From the NCBI GenBank assembly GCA_027604185.1, contig JADGKB010000009.1, forward strand, positions 173,412 through 237,411: 64,000 nucleotides of DNA, read 5' to 3'. Below are positions 16,542 to 61,360 of the stretch, one piece after another. Both the position numbers and the translations under genes were made by a program. The notes below the pieces were generated by a model. That model saw nothing but the letters and a program-made list of their open reading frames with translations, did not search any database and was not told the DNA's origin. Source of the stretch: Boothiomyces macroporosus. Taxonomy: Eukaryota; Chytridiomycota; Chytridiomycetes; Rhizophydiales; Terramycetaceae. Each line of letters begins with the position of its first letter. Position 1 is the stretch's first letter.

Positions 16542-19500
16542 TTAAGCAACCGCTTTGGCGTACCACCGGTTTCCCGGATAATATGCGGTAACAACCTCGT
16601 ATTCTTCATCGCTGAACAATCCATCCAACACATTCTCACTTTCTTTCAAGACAGTAACCTTTCGCGCTTTAATTGCCTGCCGCTTTTCCAATTCTTCAAG
16701 TATCTGAGACAATTCAAACTTTGAAAGCACGATTTCAACCCTTTTTTGTAAATCGCACAGAATCAAACCAGGAGATTCTACTAAAACTCCTAAAACTAAT
16801 TCACAACAAGCCTTGTACACATTCGGGATTATTTCACCAGTGAGTGTGTACCACAGTTTTGGAGTTGTAAAAGTTTTTGACAGTTCTGTATCAACATCAG
16901 CTAATTCAACGGGCTTTTCAATTTCAATTAACCAAGAATGCTTGTACTTTTCATGAATGTACACCGTGAAATCAAAGCCAACTTTCAATACCTTGTCATT
17001 TTCCAGTACATGTAAGATTCTATCCAAATCTTTCAACTTTGTTTTTTCTTGCAATCTTTTAAATGTTAGACCAAGGATCCCTGCCTTGTCCAATTCATCC
17101 AACACTCGGTCGCACTCTAATTGCGGCTGACTCACATTCACACTTCTATCAGCACTTTTGCTAGGCTCTATTTCATCGTCAGACTCTATTTCTTTGCGCT
17201 TGCTGCTGCTCCGGCTACTTTGAACAATCTGTATCTTAATATTTGAAACAACTAGGATTAATAACAACTACGGTTGGGATCGTCAATCTGAACTTCTGGT
17301 ATCTTGACAACAAACTCTAAATTTTCTTGGAGAAATAGTTCCAGTAGAACAGCCATAACACCGGGTTCTTTACGGACTGGAAGTGCAGTTTTCCCGTTCT
17401 CTGCTAGATTCTTTTCAAGCGATTTCAAGTACGATGCACTCTGACCAAAGAGTTTTGGCGGCAAGATTCCACACAAAAGTTCAACAAACTTGTCGCTGGG
17501 AGAAAACTGTTTACCTTTACCGTAAGACTTTCTAATCAATACATATTTTTCTACTAGCTGATTGGTAGTCTTTTTTATATCCTCTTCATCAAACTTTTTC
17601 AGTGTCAGCCAAGCAATTTCCGGTCGATACAAACTCGACGGTGTAATAGATATCATTTTGATTATTGAGGCCAACAAGTGCATATGCAAATCTTGTTCAG
17701 TCATCTCGTATTCTTGATAATCACTTTGAGGTTCAACTTCATGAGTGAAAGAGATCGAGTACAAGAATTGGGTTTTTGAAGTTAGGTATCGTCTAGATTC
17801 TAGTTGTACATGAATAGGATCACCATTTTCGATGGACATGAAGTTGGTGGTATCTTCATTAATTTGATAATTCTGTTCAAAAGTTTCTATATCCTGTGGT
17901 AGACTTAAATCATGATCGGTAGGCATTTGAAATTCCTTGATGTAACTCTTGAAACCTTGCAGTAGTTTGATTAAATTGTTAGACAAGTATGGGAAATCAA
18001 TCACTTGTGTCTGTTCAAACATTGCTTGGTATTTTGGCCACTGAGATCGGTAAAAAGCAATCTTTTGTATATTACTATACTTGCGCTTAAGGATAATGAT
18101 TCGTCTACGTAGCCGATCTTTTGTTATTTCACTATTTGATGGAAAGAGTTGCGGGAGGTAAGCTAGAGGAAATTTACCAGCAATAGAGAAATTTGACAAA
18201 ATCACAAATGAGATCAGGATGTTTTCGTCATCTTCAGCAGACCAATCCATTCGTAGCCTTCTTCCTTTTACTTTTTCTTCAGGCTCTTCTTCAACCACCT
18301 TTTCAACAGGTTTCTTTTTCGGTTTCACCCGCTCACCAATGGATTTCGAAAACCGCTTTTCGATTTTTGAATAGTAATATTTAATCATTGTGATTGACAG
18401 GGAAATCTTTCTCGACAGACTTTGGCATAAAAAGTCGTTTTGTAATGGAGTACTCTTTGTTTTGTAATCGACATAACTTTCCAAGACGCTTTTCTGTTCT
18501 GCGTTGATAGAATAGACTTCTTTCCAATTCTTTTTCACAAACAAAAATGAGTATTTTTCATCCTCGTTTGGTGGACATGATAAGCATTCGTATTCCAACT
18601 GCTTCCAGTAATTTTCTACCGAAAGCGATTCTGAATGGAACACATGTTCTACTACTGGTGGTGATTTCGAATAGTCGTACAAATTAATAGTTTGGTGTAT
18701 TTCATAGTACAATGCAATGCTTTGATGCTCTTCCAGCGGAGTGTATTCATCAGTGTAATGATCATAATGCATAGGTCGAATCAATTCCAGTGTAATCAAT
18801 ATGTGAAGTAATTCATATAGAATGTATCTAAACCTAGACTTGTTGAATTTCAAGTTTTTGATATTTTGGGGTAAATCACATAGCTTTACGAGTTTTACTT
18901 CTTGATTAATTAAATACTCATCCAGTTCATCGGATTGCCGGGTCTGTCCTACAATCTGCAGTGCTAATCCGAGTGTCAGCTGATTGAATATCCAGCTAGT
19001 TTCGATAATATCTCTGTTTTGATCAAGTAGCCACTGGTGTAGAAGCTTTGCTCTCTTATTTTTTGGTCCAATAAACCCATATTTTTTAGCAAACTCTTTC
19101 CAGTTTGGTGAATCATCAAGATCTGGTTTTTTAGGCGTCTCTATTCGATCAATCTCCATGTTTTCGATAACGATAGGTTTGGAGGCACTAGGTCGGAAAT
19201 AATTTTGTTTGTACAGTTCAATTTGATTCTTTACTAGCGGATGTTCTAGATTATAATTTGGCAACGTGATGATGTTCTTTTGAATAATGTTTCCATTTGG
19301 AATCGGTACAGCCAAGTTGAAAGTCTTTACTTCGTTATCAAGCTCAAGTAAATTGATTGCCTTTCTAATCGTTTTTCTATCTATGCGATGCTCCAAATGA
19401 TCCCACTCTCTAGCGAGCTCGTTTATTTTATCTTCTAATATTTGATTCGCGTCATGCACTCGTTCAGTTTCCAATATACTTAGAATGTACTGTTTAATTT

Positions 19501-20509
19501 TTGCAATTTTTGATATCTTTCTTGGTGTTTGCAAGGGTAATGGAGCATCCACATATTCATCAGCCCAAGGTAATTCCACATTGATAAAGTAAACAAATCT
19601 AGACGATTTCCCAACATTTTCCTGGACAGCTTTAAGGTATTTCAAGCCTTTAGTTTTCCCTTCCAGCCGATGAATCTCATTTACGATTTTCTTTTTTGGA
19701 ATAGTAGGGAAATAATGACAGATATCTTTGATGGTCATCCCTGAGTTATTGTTCTTTTTAATCAAGAGATATAATTGCACGTCAAAAGCCAGGTTTTGCT
19801 TTAGCCCAATTGTAGTATTTTGAACCATTATTGGCTTGTTCTTTTTTTCGACATACGGATATTCCAGCAACCTGACACACTTGTCCAGCCCATTTTTTTG
19901 ATTCGAGACAGCGATAAATTCAAGATATTCTGGGTTAATTCAAAATACTTTCTCGTTGTAGTTTATACAGCAATCGGTAGAATGATTTTCTCAGTGGTCT
20001 CTGTTTTGTATCTAAATTAACAAGAAATACCAATGCCAACCAAGACCATCAAATCTTGGCATTTTAAAGTTTGGTTTGTGGATTCTTTTAGTATCGTCAA
20101 CATATTATTGATTTGGTCTTTGGTAATTGCAAGGTTATGATCAATCTGATTTGTGGAAAATCTCTTGTGTATGAACAGATTCGTCCTACTCCCGGAAGCC
20201 AATACGCTAATCTTTTGACTAGGTTAACCAACAGTACATCAGATCCGTAGTCGATAGAATTTTAAGATGATGAAAAGTAGTTTTCGGGTCCATTTCAAAA
20301 TGATGGGAGATTTCAATTTGCGTAGCTCCCTTTTCTCTTCTTCTTTGAATAAACTTTAGTATTTTCAAAACTGGTGTATCCCAATTGATATTGCTGTATT
20401 TCAAATGTCCAGTAATCTCGTCGTTCTCGCAATACAGCTTCCCATCGAATTTAACCGACTTTATCTTTCGTAGTAGCCCTAGAATGTAATCCTTCGTGTT
20501 GTCCTCCAA
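16542..20509 (-). CDS. TFIIIC largest subunit (Tfc3/GTF3C1-like)
   Basis: Five exons (20238-20509, 20031-20218, 19949-20011, 17272-19929, 16542-17251) joined over introns of 19, 19, 19 and 20 nt give 1296 residues. Exon 1 carries a winged-helix of the B-block binding type (TQIEISHHFEMDPKTTFHHL), continued after splicing by DLIQKISVLASGSRT. Further winged-helix-like blocks occur (SGMTIKDICHYFPTIPKKKI), and the acidic/basic linker KRKEIESDDE lies near the C-terminal part. This order fits the tau138/GTF3C1 subunit that binds the B box of tRNA genes. Overall similarity is low outside the N-terminus, as is usual for this protein, so the name is an inference from domain order and size. Confidence 0.68.
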
Positions 20510-20733
20510 AGGCGTAATTAAACCTATCTAAGTCTAGTCTTACCTACTGTTAACTCTATATACATTTCGAGTCTGCAAATTTCTTTTCTAATATTTCCCA
20601 CAATTCATTCAATTCCATTCCTGCATTAGTTTAACAGACCTTCGGGACCATTAACGGAAATTTCATTAATGGCGAATTGCAGCACTTGATCCATTTTCGC
20701 CACAAATTTTTTAGTTGGCTTTTCAGACTAAAA

Positions 20734-22884
20734 ATGGACGCATTTCTAAGTTGGGTAATAATAATTAACATAGGTAAGCGTAACTAACCATAGGTAAGTC
20801 CGCATTCATGTAGGCGAATACAATCCAAGAGACTACCGTAGAGTCGCTTGCGAATGGACAATCAATCAATCTGATTCTAAACAAAATAGATTCCAATTGG
20901 TTCAAAATCAAACCGCATTCGGATAACTGGGTCATTCAATTCAATAATTTAAAGTTGAATTACAAATTGATTGGAATGTACTTGCAGGAAATGAACCAGC
21001 AAATTGGGAACCTGGAACCAATTGATTTCACCAAAATGGTAAAGAATATGGATGTGAAAGAAATTGAGAAATATTGTTTTTTGGTTATTTCGCTATGCGT
21101 AGGTATAAACTTATTTTAGGTAAGGAATTCTAACCGCAGGTTCAATGCGGGAATAATCAATTCTTTATTGAAAAGATTCAAACGCTTCCGCAAGAGCATC
21201 AGACTACTCTTATGGTTGAAATTGAAAAAGTATGTTAATTTTAATACAGACCATCAATCTGTTGAGGAATGACAAGGTGAAAAAAGATAATGTCCAAGAT
21301 CTAGAGCAAGAATTGGAGGCTTTGAAGCAAGAGAAACTGGTGCTTGAAAACAAACTAGTCCAAATGGGAAAATCAAATTCGAATGAATACAATATTCAGC
21401 TAGAAACGAGAATGTAAATAGTATTAATACAGTGTTCAACTGGAAAAAGAGAACCAAGAACTGTCTCTAAAGAATCAGCAACTGTCTTCCAAAACTGTTT
21501 CTTTGAACCAGAAATTGAACCAAGAATACGAAAAAAATGACTTTCCAAAGATTCAACTCGATGAATTCAAACAGATCGTAGACAAGTTGGAAAAGACCGA
21601 GATGATGAACGAAAAATTAAGAAAAAAGATTGATGATTTGAATGAGCAAAAGAATGAAATCTCTCACTTGAAAAGCGTTGTTGACGATTTAAACAAAAAG
21701 AACAGTAAATATCTTGTTAACCAAAGATGACTTGGAAGAACATTTCCAAAAAGTGGCTGGATTGAAGCCATTGATTGATACTTACAAAGCCCAAATTGAG
21801 CAACTGGAAGAAAAGAATTCTCAGTTGCACGTTGAGCAATTGAACCTGTCTTTTCAAGCCAAAGAATTCAAAACAAGAATCAAGAGGTACGAGCAAGAGC
21901 ATGAACGCGATTCTGAAAAGATCATGGAGCTAGAAGAGCATATCAGAGATATTGAATTGGGAGTTGGAGAGTCTAAAGAATCCAAAGATATTCTTAAAGA
22001 GCAAAGCTTGAAATTGCTTTCTCAAACTAAAGAATTGGAAAGAGTCAGAGTATTGGAAAACTTGTTGCAAGACGCAAACTCTCTAAAGCAAAAATTCCAA
22101 GAGGATTATCAACAAGTATACAAGCAAAACATTTCATTATTAAACCAAATCCAACAATTGAAAACATTTAGTGATCCATCTTCAGCAGATTTGGTTTTGA
22201 AACTTACACATGCAGAATCTCAATTAAAGCGAATGCAGTCTGAAACCGACTTGAAAAAGGAAGAAAAACATAAATCTAGAACTTCATTTTCACCAGATAA
22301 GCGATTGTTTGATGAAAACAAAAAGATAATTGCTAGATGTGAAACATTGGAGCAAGAGAAGGCCAACTTGGAAACTAATTTAGCAGAAATCAATACAAAG
22401 ATGATGGAACTATCCAAACAAAACACGTATTTATTATTAATTTAGCGATTTAAAATCCAAGCTCAATGTATACGACTCTACTACTGGTAATATGGACGAC
22501 ACGACCAAAAACCTAGTAACGGCAACGCAAAAGCTAGGCTCAGTGACTGAACAAAACGTTCAACTCCATCAAGCACTCAAACAAGCCAAAGAATTAATCC
22601 AATCACAAGACAAGAAAATCAAAGAACTCGTAAGTTCAAGCACCAGTGAAAACTTTTTAGAAGCTGTACAGTCACTCGAACATACACTCAAACAACGAGA
22701 AGCCGAAATCCAACGACTAGTTACTGAGATCAAAGATACTAGAATGGCAGCTAAACGTGAACAACGATTGATGATGAGTGCATGGTACGAGCTTGGAATT
22801 CAGTTTCAACGTAAATCTGGTGGTGGGCCGGTTTCGTGGTTGGGTCAACAGCGCCAAAACCTGTCTAAATCAAGATTACTATAA
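20734..22884 (+). CDS. Hook-family dynein adaptor
   Basis: Seven exons (20734-20754, 20814-21098, 21140-21229, 21250-21413, 21433-21704, 21727-22426, 22446-22884) give 656 residues. The N-terminal Hook domain reads FLSW, then LANGQSINLILNKIDSNWFK and DNWVIQFNNLKLNYKLIGMY, matching HOOK1-3/HookA. The rest is almost continuous coiled coil, ending in SWLGQQRQN. Hook proteins link dynein-dynactin to early endosomes. The first two introns are 59 and 41 nt and each is built of about 20-nt GT...AG units back to back; the others are 20, 19, 22 and 19 nt. Removal of all units is needed to keep the frame. It shares a 224-nt divergent promoter region with the TFIIIC gene and ends 19 nt from the transporter. 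Confidence 0.88.
20755..20813 (+). other. Triple stacked intron in Hook gene
   Basis: The 59 nt between exon 1 (ATG...TGG) and exon 2 (GCG AAT ACA) divide into three intron-like units with nothing between them. Unit 1 (20755-20773) is GTAATAATAATTAACATAG, 19 nt. Unit 2 (20774-20793) is GTAAGCGTAACTAACCATAG, 20 nt. Unit 3 (20794-20813) is GTAAGTCCGCATTCATGTAG, 20 nt. Each starts GTAA and ends TAG; units 1 and 2 also carry clear branch-like TTAAC/CTAAC. Removing only one or two units always gives a premature stop or loses the conserved Hook frame. Confidence 0.8.
21099..21139 (+). other. Double stacked intron in Hook gene
   Basis: Between SLC (exon 2) and VQCGNNQFFIEK (exon 3) lie 41 nt made of a 21-nt unit (21099-21119, GTAGG...TTTTAG) and a 20-nt unit (21120-21139, GTAAGGAATTCTAACCGCAG). 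The junction is AG|GT with no exon. Only removal of both restores the Hook-domain frame. Confidence 0.78.
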
Positions 22885-24557: not shown

Positions 24558-25641
24558 ATGACCAGAAAGGTTGGCCTGTTGTATTCAAAAGAATTGATCC
24601 ACTACGCAGATAGCCTTCATAATAGCGGAAGCAGAGTAATTAGAGTTAATTCAGTCCCGTCTGACTCATGACTTGATTGCAGCCTACAAGCTCCCAATAG
24701 AAATTATCGAAGCCCAAAAAGCAACGATAACAGAGCTGATGGAATATCACTCTGTTGAATACATAGGAGCAATTTATAGTACCAAAGAACTGGAGAGCGA
24801 AGGGATTTATGATCCAGTAGAAAAAACACCTTTGGAATACTTGGGATTAGTGGATGACTGTGCCAAATTTACTGATATAAAAGAGCATATTCTCTATATT
24901 GCCGGGTCTTCAATTACAGCTGCCAGAGCAATCCAAGATCACGATGTGATAATTAACTGGCAAGGAGGAAGACATCACGCAAAAAAATCTAAAGCTGCTG
25001 GGTTCTGCTATGTTAACGACGTTGTCCTGTGTATCATGCAATTACAAGAAGATTACCAAAGAATACTCTACATTGACATTGACATTCATCATGGTGACGG
25101 AGTAGAAGAGGCTTTCAGCTGCTCCAAGTCAGTTACCACCTGTTCTTTTCACATTTGTGAGCCCGGATACTTTCCTGGAAGTGGCAAGAACAGTTTGAAC
25201 GAATATACCATCAATGTCCCACTTAAGCCAGGGATTCAAGGAGAAAAGTTTCTAGCTGTTTTTACTCGTGTCGTTGAAAAAGTAATGGCGACTGCAAATC
25301 CTCAGGTGATTGTTTTGCAATGTGGAGTAGATGGGCTAGCTAGAGATCCACTTGGAGGTTGGAATTTGACAGAAGTTGATTATTGTAATTGCGTCGATTA
25401 CATCCTCAGATCGAATATGCCTACCATAATCCTGGGAGGAGGAGGATATAACCCGGTTAATGTTGCAAAATGTTGGACGAGTGTAACAGCAAAGTGTGTT
25501 GGAGTAGATTTACCAAGAGATATCCCCGAAATTGATGATTGGCCACTGTTTGCACCAGATTACTCAATCAATGTATCGAAAAGCAATCAGAAAGATTACA
25601 ACGAGTCTGTAGATTCCATTTTATGTTCTATAAGCAATTAA
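24558..25641 (+). CDS. Class I histone deacetylase, Hos1/HDAC8-like
   Basis: Exons 24558-24635 and 24655-25641 flank a 19-nt intron (24636-24654); the product is 354 residues. Zn-site and catalytic motifs are intact: GGRHHAKKSKAAGFCYVND, DIDIHHGDGVEEAF, the aspartate in CGVDGLARDPLGG, and the transition-state Tyr in ILGGGGYNPVN. GGRHH instead of GGLHH or GGWHH, together with the short tail, fits Hos1/HDAC8 rather than Rpd3. Splicing joins YADSLHNSGSR to SRLTHDLIAAY, the usual HDAC N-terminal helix. The product would deacetylate histones or, as for Hos1, cohesin Smc3; the substrate is inference. Convergent with the Rad5-like gene (67 nt). Confidence 0.92.
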
Positions 25642-37557: not shown

Positions 37558-38541
37558 TTATTTTTGAAGAAAATCTCTAATATCCTGAACGAATCTTGAA
37601 AGGAATCTCTTGTCGTGTGAGAAAAAGTGGTCTGCTCCATCGTATACAATCAATCGTCCATTTGGACACGCTTTTAACCACAGCTGCTCTGAATCTCGAT
37701 GATCTAGTGAGCCATTAATAAACAAAACTCTTCCCTTGAAATTTGGCAGCTGCTTTAGCGGGTTGGTATTCGAGAGTATTTCCACTTGCTCTAAACCAGA
37801 GTGAAAGTACATTCCCGTGTAAAGAGCAATTTCATTCACCATGTCGTTGGAAATGTTTTCATTCTTGTTTGCTTGAGCGATTAACCCTTTCAGCATGAAA
37901 ATATTTGGAAGTAGGGGAATGAATAATTTGAATGCCATCATGCCTAATCCTGCTTTCCAGCCTCTTCCCACTCCAACGTTTTGTCCAGCCATTCCAATTA
38001 CTGCTGCTGAAAACAGATCGGGGTGTCTTCCGAGCAGTTCCATTCCGATATACCCACCTACAGTTAATAATGTATACCTAGAGAGCCACCAACATAGACT
38101 GGCTTAATCCCGTTAAAAATATTTGTGTGGTCTTTGACAGTGTCAATAATTACTTTGATTGCCGATTCAAGACCAAGAGCTTCATCCATTCGAGAGCCAT
38201 GACCGGGTAAATCAATCAATACACAGTGGTACTCTGTCAGTTGTCTAGCATGCTCAACAAACATCTTTCGATTACCGCCCCTAGTTAAATCCCATTTACC
38301 CGCCATGGACAAATACAATAGAGACTGCACTGTTCTTGTCTCTACCATACTCTTCATAGTTTATATTGAAATCAAGGCTGCATACTTTTTTGAAACATGG
38401 TTTACAACGAGAGGCAAGAGGTTTATCAGACGAAGCACAAGCATAGTCCAAACACTTGCTACAGAATATTTGGTTACATTCTGGGCACTGGCTGGCAAAG
38501 AAATATATTGATTTGGAACACGATTTGCAGGTGGATGGCAT
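37558..38541 (-). CDS. Zinc-finger plus alpha/beta hydrolase fusion
   Basis: Exons 38300-38541, 38078-38280 and 37558-38057, with introns of 19 and 20 nt, give 314 residues. Residues 1-52 hold eight or more cysteines in CxxC pairs (CKSCSKSIYFFASQCPECNQ, then CSKC, CKPCFKKVC), a FYVE/B-box-like zinc-binding module. An alpha/beta hydrolase follows: oxyanion FVHGGGGN (made by splicing), LIDLPGHGSR, nucleophile elbow VGGSLGG (also made by splicing), acid near INGSLDHRDSE, and His in DGADHFFSHD. All triad elements are present. The substrate is unknown. The finger may direct it to membranes or proteins. Confidence 0.8.
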
Positions 38542-60206: not shown

Positions 60207-61360
60207 TTATTGATCGTCGTCCACATTTGTAAAACTTTTGATATTCAAGAATTCAAAAACATTGCTCCTGATTCTACCATCCAGTGTAATCAGCAAGTAT
60301 GGGTTAATGGCGCTATTGGATAGTGCAAAGAGTGAAACTGGTTAACATTCACTTACTGATTGCATCCACCACTGGCGGAACAGGGAGACCTGTAATGAGG
60401 GTGTACACTATCCCAACTAAATATGGTGTCTGGTGTCAACTTTCAATTACCCAACAGGATATAAAAGTGCCGGAAATCAAAATAGACTTTGTCAGTAGCT
60501 GCTTTTCTCTCGCGGTTACTACACCCGTTTGCGGCTCTGGTTTTTTAGTTGCATCCCCTTTATATTCTGCTACACTGTTAATATTTGATTCAGTAGCTTT
60601 CGTAGTTGTTTGAAAGCCAAATGATTTCTGACCAGAGTTTTTGAATACATTCATCGCATTCATGTATTTCAAGACAATCATGACTAGATTAGAATTCAGT
60701 TACAGTATGCGTATCCGATAAAAGAAACGGAAAACATGAGAATTACAATTGTAATTACAAGCATTACGATTGTCAATGGCTGCCTAGCGTTAGGTTTACA
60801 TACCTATCCCACCAAGCAACAGTGCAAATTTGATGAGCTGGCTGCAATCCGTAGGCATTGTGATAAGAGTTGGTAATCAGCGGAAAAACAGCAATTAGTA
60901 AACTGACAATCCAAATAACACCAGTCCATTTCCACGCACCTATGTTATATTCAAGTACTGGCTTCGTCCAGGTTTTTCAGAGACATCACCGCTCTATATC
61001 TTTCCAGAGTAATTGCAAAGCAAGAGTGAATCGAAGCAAAACACCCCAGCAGCACCAATAAAGAGTCAATGATGCAGCCGATTGCTCCAGTAGACCATCC
61101 CCCAAATGATAGATCTATATTGAACTATGGGTACCTCTAATCCCAAAAAATATAGCACTGAGAATAAACATGAAATCTGCCCAACAGAGAGATAGCAAGA
61201 GTAAAGTTGACGGTCCGTTCTTTTTAGGCAGTGTAGCTAAAAGGACAATACTGACACCGATTGCACCAACGAATGCGATAATTACGTGAATAACAATCCA
61301 AGATATTTCGCCTGGACCATCGAATGGCAGAACTGAATCTGGAATATCGATAACATTCAT
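60207..61360 (-). CDS. Class A (rhodopsin-like) GPCR
   Basis: Seven exons (61135-61360, 60959-61114, 60804-60939, 60704-60783, 60451-60683, 60357-60429, 60207-60337) over introns of 20, 19, 20, 20, 21 and 19 nt give 344 residues. All class A landmarks appear after splicing: helix 2 LLLSLCWADFMFIL, helix 3 FAITLERYRAV (E/DRY), helix 4 WTGVIWIVSLLIAVFPLI, helix 6 FISCWTPYLVGIVY (CWxP), and helix 7 SNSAINPYLLITLD (NPxxY-like). The third loop is long and Lys/Gln-rich. None of these exons is long enough to be found by simple ORF search. Ligand unknown. Such receptors are unusual outside animals but have been annotated in early-diverging fungi, to my knowledge. Confidence 0.85.

Follow-up and report, generated by a model that had tools for sequence, protein, structure and literature searches.

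The 59-nt first intron of the Hook gene of Boothiomyces macroporosus, a chytrid (Rhizophydiales, Terramycetaceae), is composed of three intron-like units that abut without any exon between them. It is one of about 28 such arrays predicted in the genome (15.2 Mb in 216 contigs), and the units are probably removed singly by the spliceosome. The window, the whole 64,000-nt stretch of DNA that was analysed, corresponds to positions 173412-237411 of contig C9. The Hook gene occupies positions 20734-22884 of its plus strand, and the 5′ part is arranged as follows.

20734..20754, plus strand: Hook exon 1, codons 1-7 (MDAFLSW), ATGGACGCATTTCTAAGTTGG; sequence and HOOK3 alignment
20755..20773, plus strand: array 1 unit 1, 19 nt, GTAATAATAATTAACATAG, branch-point-like TTAAC; motif score 10.1
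20774..20793, plus strand: array 1 unit 2, 20 nt, GTAAGCGTAACTAACCATAG, branch-point-like CTAAC; motif score 9.8
20794..20813, plus strand: array 1 unit 3, 20 nt, GTAAGTCCGCATTCATGTAG, without a canonical branch point; sequence and gene finder
20814..21098, plus strand: Hook exon 2, starting with GCGAATACAATCC; gene finder and HOOK3 alignment

The initial annotation had described the 59 nt as three abutting GTAA...TAG units of 19+20+20 nt. The sequence is exactly so, with the TAG/GTAA joints at 20773/20774 and 20793/20794. The units are unlike one another in sequence, and unit 3, whose 3′ end is ATTCATGTAG, has no YTAAY branch point. All eight retention states were translated, and the frame was open over the 80 codons tested only with full removal. 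In the other seven states a stop was reached after 7 to 43 codons; when units 1 and 2 or units 1 and 3 (39 nt) were kept, the frame was held, yet a stop lay inside. Thus, as previously claimed, partial removal leads to a frameshift or stop (7/7 states) whichever unit is retained, while after full removal the Hook domain can be aligned over residues 4-133 with human HOOK3 (E value of 2e-8). The Hook protein of Globomyces aligns across both array joints of the spliced window protein, and the Terramyces model, which lacks the N-terminus, spans the second array joint only. The zero-length-exon array of Hook is thereby confirmed at the sequence level, its units being predicted introns. The entire 59 nt is likewise spliced out in the NCBI model of Hook; this proves nothing about the removal steps, because any path drops the 59 nt, and the C-terminus of the model departs from those of the relatives. 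Specifically, the C-terminal part conserved among the window, Terramyces, and Globomyces proteins is missing from this model (P0122), which is likely an annotation error. Two Hook protein searches gave no copy from B. macroporosus that was recognisable as a spliced cDNA.

The units have the standard intron length of the genome, in agreement with the initial annotation, since the predicted introns are mostly 19-22 nt long. Scanning of 264 kb (the window and C1:1-200000) with the motif GTAW..YTAAY..YAG gave a sharp peak at an intron length of ~19-21 nt. In a length-neutral run of the gene finder, 218 of 319 predicted introns were 19-22 nt, 10 were 23-36 nt, and 28 were 26-70 nt (the two latter ranges overlap, and the 28 include two arrays taken whole). 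Most others exceeded 70 nt, and many of these look like skipped exons. When zero-length exons were allowed and a length prior was applied, 346 of the 365 places with a single intron were 19-22 nt, 7 were 23-25 nt, and 12, including the WD40 array (see below) taken as a single 104-nt piece, were longer, a figure that is biased toward short introns by the prior, whereas that of the length-neutral run is not. The sensitivity of the gene finder without splice-site scores was too low. Canonical YTAAY is present in 219 of the 346 single introns, and the genome search for U2 gave two major-type U2 snRNA genes above the cut-off. The predicted introns therefore have the characteristics of minimal introns, namely GT...AG ends, a branch-point-like YTAAY, and a narrow length. 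Minimal, length-restricted introns are also present in Stentor and in the chlorarachniophyte nucleomorph.

One-at-a-time removal of the Hook units is likely because predicted introns are nearly always 19-22 nt, and 59 nt would not be a usual one-step substrate, given how seldom introns of 40-60 nt that lack inner units are predicted. In minimal introns the donor, branch point, and acceptor lie within ~20 nt, and a unit would be recognisable alone in principle. Recognition of each unit could accordingly rely on the donor, branch point, and acceptor within it, and the units could leave in any order, with the same mRNA as the outcome. Both the intron identity of the units in vivo and their stepwise departure are inferred here. 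Some units may not be autonomous, because a canonical branch point is missing from unit 3 of Hook array 1, unit 1 of the second Hook array, and some units of the WD40 array (see below). In addition, a strict length rule is opposed by the weak branch point of unit 3 in Hook and by a few longer predicted introns, some of which, such as two on C1 (43 and 45 nt), could be genuine.

The same observations bear on one-step excision of a single 59-nt intron from the first donor to the last acceptor, in which the inner AG/GT sites would be unused relics of its origin. The weak branch point of unit 3 speaks for such an excision, as does the existence of some predicted introns of 26-70 nt (4/365 under the short-biased model and 28/319 in the length-neutral run). 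The NCBI Hook model also drops the whole stretch, though any path would. We regard one-step excision as rather unlikely: unused inner units should decay, yet their length and ends are kept in arrays of up to five units, and few unitary introns of 40-60 nt are predicted.

The second Hook intron (21099-21139) is a 21+20 doublet, the full removal of which gives LCVQC, a string also found in Terramyces. The first intron of a predicted TFIIIC-like gene located head to head with Hook (20524-20563, minus strand) is a 20+20 doublet. Neither doublet was included in the initial annotation, and together with array 1 they place three arrays inside 616 bp (window 20524-21139). The remaining features are as follows.

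21099..21119, plus strand: array 2 unit 1, 21 nt, weak branch point; motif score 4.2 and gene finder
21120..21139, plus strand: array 2 unit 2, 20 nt, branch-point-like CTAAC; motif score 8.2 and gene finder
21230..21249, plus strand: ordinary Hook intron, 20 nt; gene finder and frame
21414..21432, plus strand: ordinary Hook intron, 19 nt; gene finder and frame
21705..21726, plus strand: ordinary Hook intron, 22 nt, 3′ end AAAG; gene finder and Globomyces alignment without an insert
22427..22445, plus strand: ordinary Hook intron, 19 nt; gene finder and frame
16542..20618, minus strand: predicted TFIIIC-like gene; PF04182 B-block, E value of 2e-12
20544..20563, minus strand: TFIIIC-like doublet, first unit, 20 nt; frame support only
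20524..20543, minus strand: TFIIIC-like doublet, second unit, 20 nt; frame support only
24673-25641: histone deacetylase gene; product 100% identical to a Boothiomyces macroporosus protein

A frameshift or sequencing error near 21720 was considered and dropped in favour of the 22-nt intron, as Globomyces has no insert there and the gene finder calls an intron. A near-identical Hook protein from another source (P0001) reads in frame through both 21705-21726 and 22427-22445. Its translation implies 21 and 20 nt at these two introns versus 22 and 19 nt in the window; strains thus seem to differ by a one-base drift in intron length. The in-frame read-through of P0001 near 21720 fits an unspliced 21-nt version.

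Beyond these three arrays, six more were placed in identified genes.

WD40 gene, C8: five units, 20+21+21+22+20 (104 nt); read by eye, frame only
BRE, first array, C8: 19+19+19; homology across the joint (Pfam)
BRE, second array, C8: 20+22+20; frame only
HAT1: 19+20; homology across the joint (3e-54)
USP7-like MATH gene: 20+21+21+20 (82 nt); homology across the joint (Pfam)
FTS, C163:22032-22698: 22+22+20; homology across the joint, best PDB match AKT-interacting protein

Of the nine arrays examined with their flanks, six have homology across the joint (Hook twice, HAT1, FTS, MATH, and the first BRE array), and frame alone supports the other three (the second BRE array, WD40, and TFIIIC-like). 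Sequence outside the window was examined over about 296 kb, in loci of which four overlap the window. A further 19 distinct arrays (11+5+3) are putative, being known as sequence strings alone; this tally omits C47:75580, for which there is no clean parse, and the places on C1 and C191, where the sequence resembles a simple tandem repeat. All 59 typed array units are 19-22 nt long, a range that the search patterns favour. Whole arrays measure 39-104 nt, and the longest, of four units (82 nt) and of five units (104 nt, by eye), are longer than that of Hook. The gene finder kept the 104 nt of WD40 as one unsplit piece, and this array would have up to seven units if all 149 nt between the conserved exons were intronic. 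WD40 and BRE are a divergent pair, the modelled start codons being separated by 12 bp, and their three arrays lie within ~1.1 kb (C8:113695-114820).

Several observations accompany this list. Both three-array clusters are located at head-to-head gene pairs. The first 310 nt of coding sequence contain four of six gene-finder arrays versus 75 of 263 introns in the window and C1, numbers that are small. Arrays are present in both Hook and FTS, which are presumably partners in the FHF dynein adaptor. No PDB entry matched the BRE or the MATH protein in searches. At C1:351642-351744, a 20-bp unit whose ends resemble those of introns (GTAAGTGTAATTTGAGATAG) is repeated in tandem in at least 5 copies. 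Of 89 TAG/GTA matches, 30 were read; in 26 of these nothing upstream resembles an intron unit, and they appear to be ordinary introns preceded by an exonic TAG. TAG/GTA introns at 38058-38080 and 60784-60806 (minus) of the window likewise have no intron-like unit upstream.

The frequency of abutting units relative to random expectation had been set beforehand as a possible refutation of the array proposal; it came out above expectation and does not refute the proposal, with an excess at a gap of 3 nt as well. The genome-wide search for direct repeats of short GT...AG units found them to be recurrent, with 19 strict pairs at zero gap (17 distinct strings) versus one for the reversed pattern; pairs starting with GTAT added five more versus none. 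The same strict pattern gave 0, 2, 11, and 2 pairs at gaps of 1, 2, 3, and 4 nt, respectively. Random placement of introns in coding sequence, extrapolated from 264 kb to about 15,000 introns and 9.8 Mb of coding sequence, predicted 4.5 strict zero-gap pairs, or 9.2 with raw pattern counts. When the first unit was fixed at 19 nt, 9 of the 19 pairs remained at zero gap and the sum over gaps of 1-30 nt was 10 (including the C8 triple itself), compared with 1.35 expected per gap under random placement. These counts indicate that very short exons are depleted overall and that zero is enriched. Arrays of at least three units numbered 8 versus about 0.035 expected by arithmetic on the same figures: Hook, BRE twice, WD40, MATH, FTS, and, by string alone, C77 and C92.

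The 3-nt gap was also enriched, and this excess counts against zero gap being unique. Six of the 11 gap-3 pairs are located at C103:3813-31205, where all spacers are NCC, possibly single-codon exons or a repeat. In three others (C15:29110, C27:130121, and C172:5885) the spacer is exactly ATG, and the start codon alone may form a 3-nt exon between two introns. Judging from these spacers, six ending in CC and three ATG, codon-length micro-exons seem to exist too.

The counts also address the view that introns are gained densely and independently of one another and that the arrays are incidental, with introns landing side by side by chance. About 23 zero-gap pairs would be expected over all introns (4.5 to 9.2 strict), 3-nt micro-exons are also frequent, and some doublets may have arisen in this manner. 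As a full explanation, chance was rejected on the 19 strict pairs versus 4.5 and the 8 longer arrays versus about 0.035. The clustering of three arrays within 616 bp in the window and three within ~1.1 kb on C8, and the exact unit copies in C8, also stand against it, making independent gain a very unlikely source of the arrays in general.

Arrays may grow when a whole unit is duplicated in tandem, a change that would be invisible to the protein because AG/GT is common to both ends. A duplication model of intron gain through AGGT is known. The initial annotation had proposed tandem gain, and this part of it is only weakly supported. In its favour, units 1 and 2 of the first BRE array on C8 are identical (19/19) and unit 3 matches at 16/19, and units 2 and 3 of the C92 array match at 18/21; apparent recent copying is visible in these two arrays only. 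On the other side, the similarity of adjacent units (34 pairs in 25 arrays) was 7.2 versus 6.6 of 17, which is marginal (p = 0.057), and the Hook units are unlike one another. Either most arrays are old or they arose by another route, such as insertion at the AG/GT of an existing intron. Introner-type likeness was compared between adjacent units, again with a marginal outcome, since 20 nt is too little sequence for a comparison across the genome. The idea that introns in general arise when the flanking exon is duplicated was rejected, as the comparison of intron start with downstream exon start gave z = -0.5 over 352 intron places. The BRE array on C8 alone resembles its downstream exon start (7/10 bases).

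The arrays share single features with several known systems. In Drosophila, recursive splicing at ratchet points uses single sites in long introns, each followed by a cryptic exon and then by another donor (PMC8605326). The abutment of acceptor and donor as AG/GT, an apparent zero-nucleotide exon, is common to these sites and Hook array 1. Introns with ratchet points are removed in steps according to the same source, and stepwise removal would be the B. macroporosus counterpart. Unlike ratchet points as described there, the present arrays are runs of complete ~20-nt minimal introns: the host introns are not long (39-104 nt for whole arrays), and each joint is followed by a complete unit ending in an acceptor rather than by a skipped cryptic exon with a donor. 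The repeat-expansion intron gain of Cryptococcus, in the portion of the report cited, involves a ~107-nt repeat that includes exon ends, with exons separating the copies (PMC2395259). Multiplication of an intron within a gene by tandem duplication would be shared with that case; in B. macroporosus the repeated piece is the intron alone. The narrow intron length resembles the tight restriction to roughly 15-30 nt outlined for ciliates (PMC5014332), while B. macroporosus is a chytrid fungus.

Stwintrons, as characterised in the cited sections, are composite intervening sequences of fungi that are removed by consecutive reactions, the inner intron splitting a splice signal of the outer one (PMC5639578, PMC7138796). 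Their composite nature and fungal host recall the present arrays, and nested introns of this type, in which a unit lies inside the donor of another that functions only after the inner one has left, would also entail consecutive removal. The B. macroporosus units, in contrast, follow one another head to tail with separate ends. GT and AG already bound every Hook unit, and if units 1 and 2 are parsed as [D1,2], the outer donor reads GGTAAG, not GT. This parse was rejected for Hook, the one gene in which it was tested, and a nested arrangement is highly improbable. The open-licence literature contains recursive splicing, stwintrons, and repeat-expansion gain; among the matches listed, with subscription journals mostly outside the scope, no tandem minimal-intron arrays were found.

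For annotators, the finding is a warning that an array may be mistaken for a single odd intron of 40, 60, or 80 nt. Separate removal of the units, the reading preferred here, can be extended to a possible but doubtful scheme in which a ~20-nt ruler of the spliceosome would be unable to span two units, making removal strictly unit by unit. Whole-intron tandem duplication at AG/GT would then grow the arrays, and intron ends would serve as a protein-neutral nursery for new introns. Minimal introns probe the smallest spliceosomal substrate, and the gain of an intron is seldom observed as it happens. The predicted arrays of two, three, four, and five units in identified genes would provide a test of whether the spliceosome measures intron length, and they also let one ask if new introns arise beside old ones.
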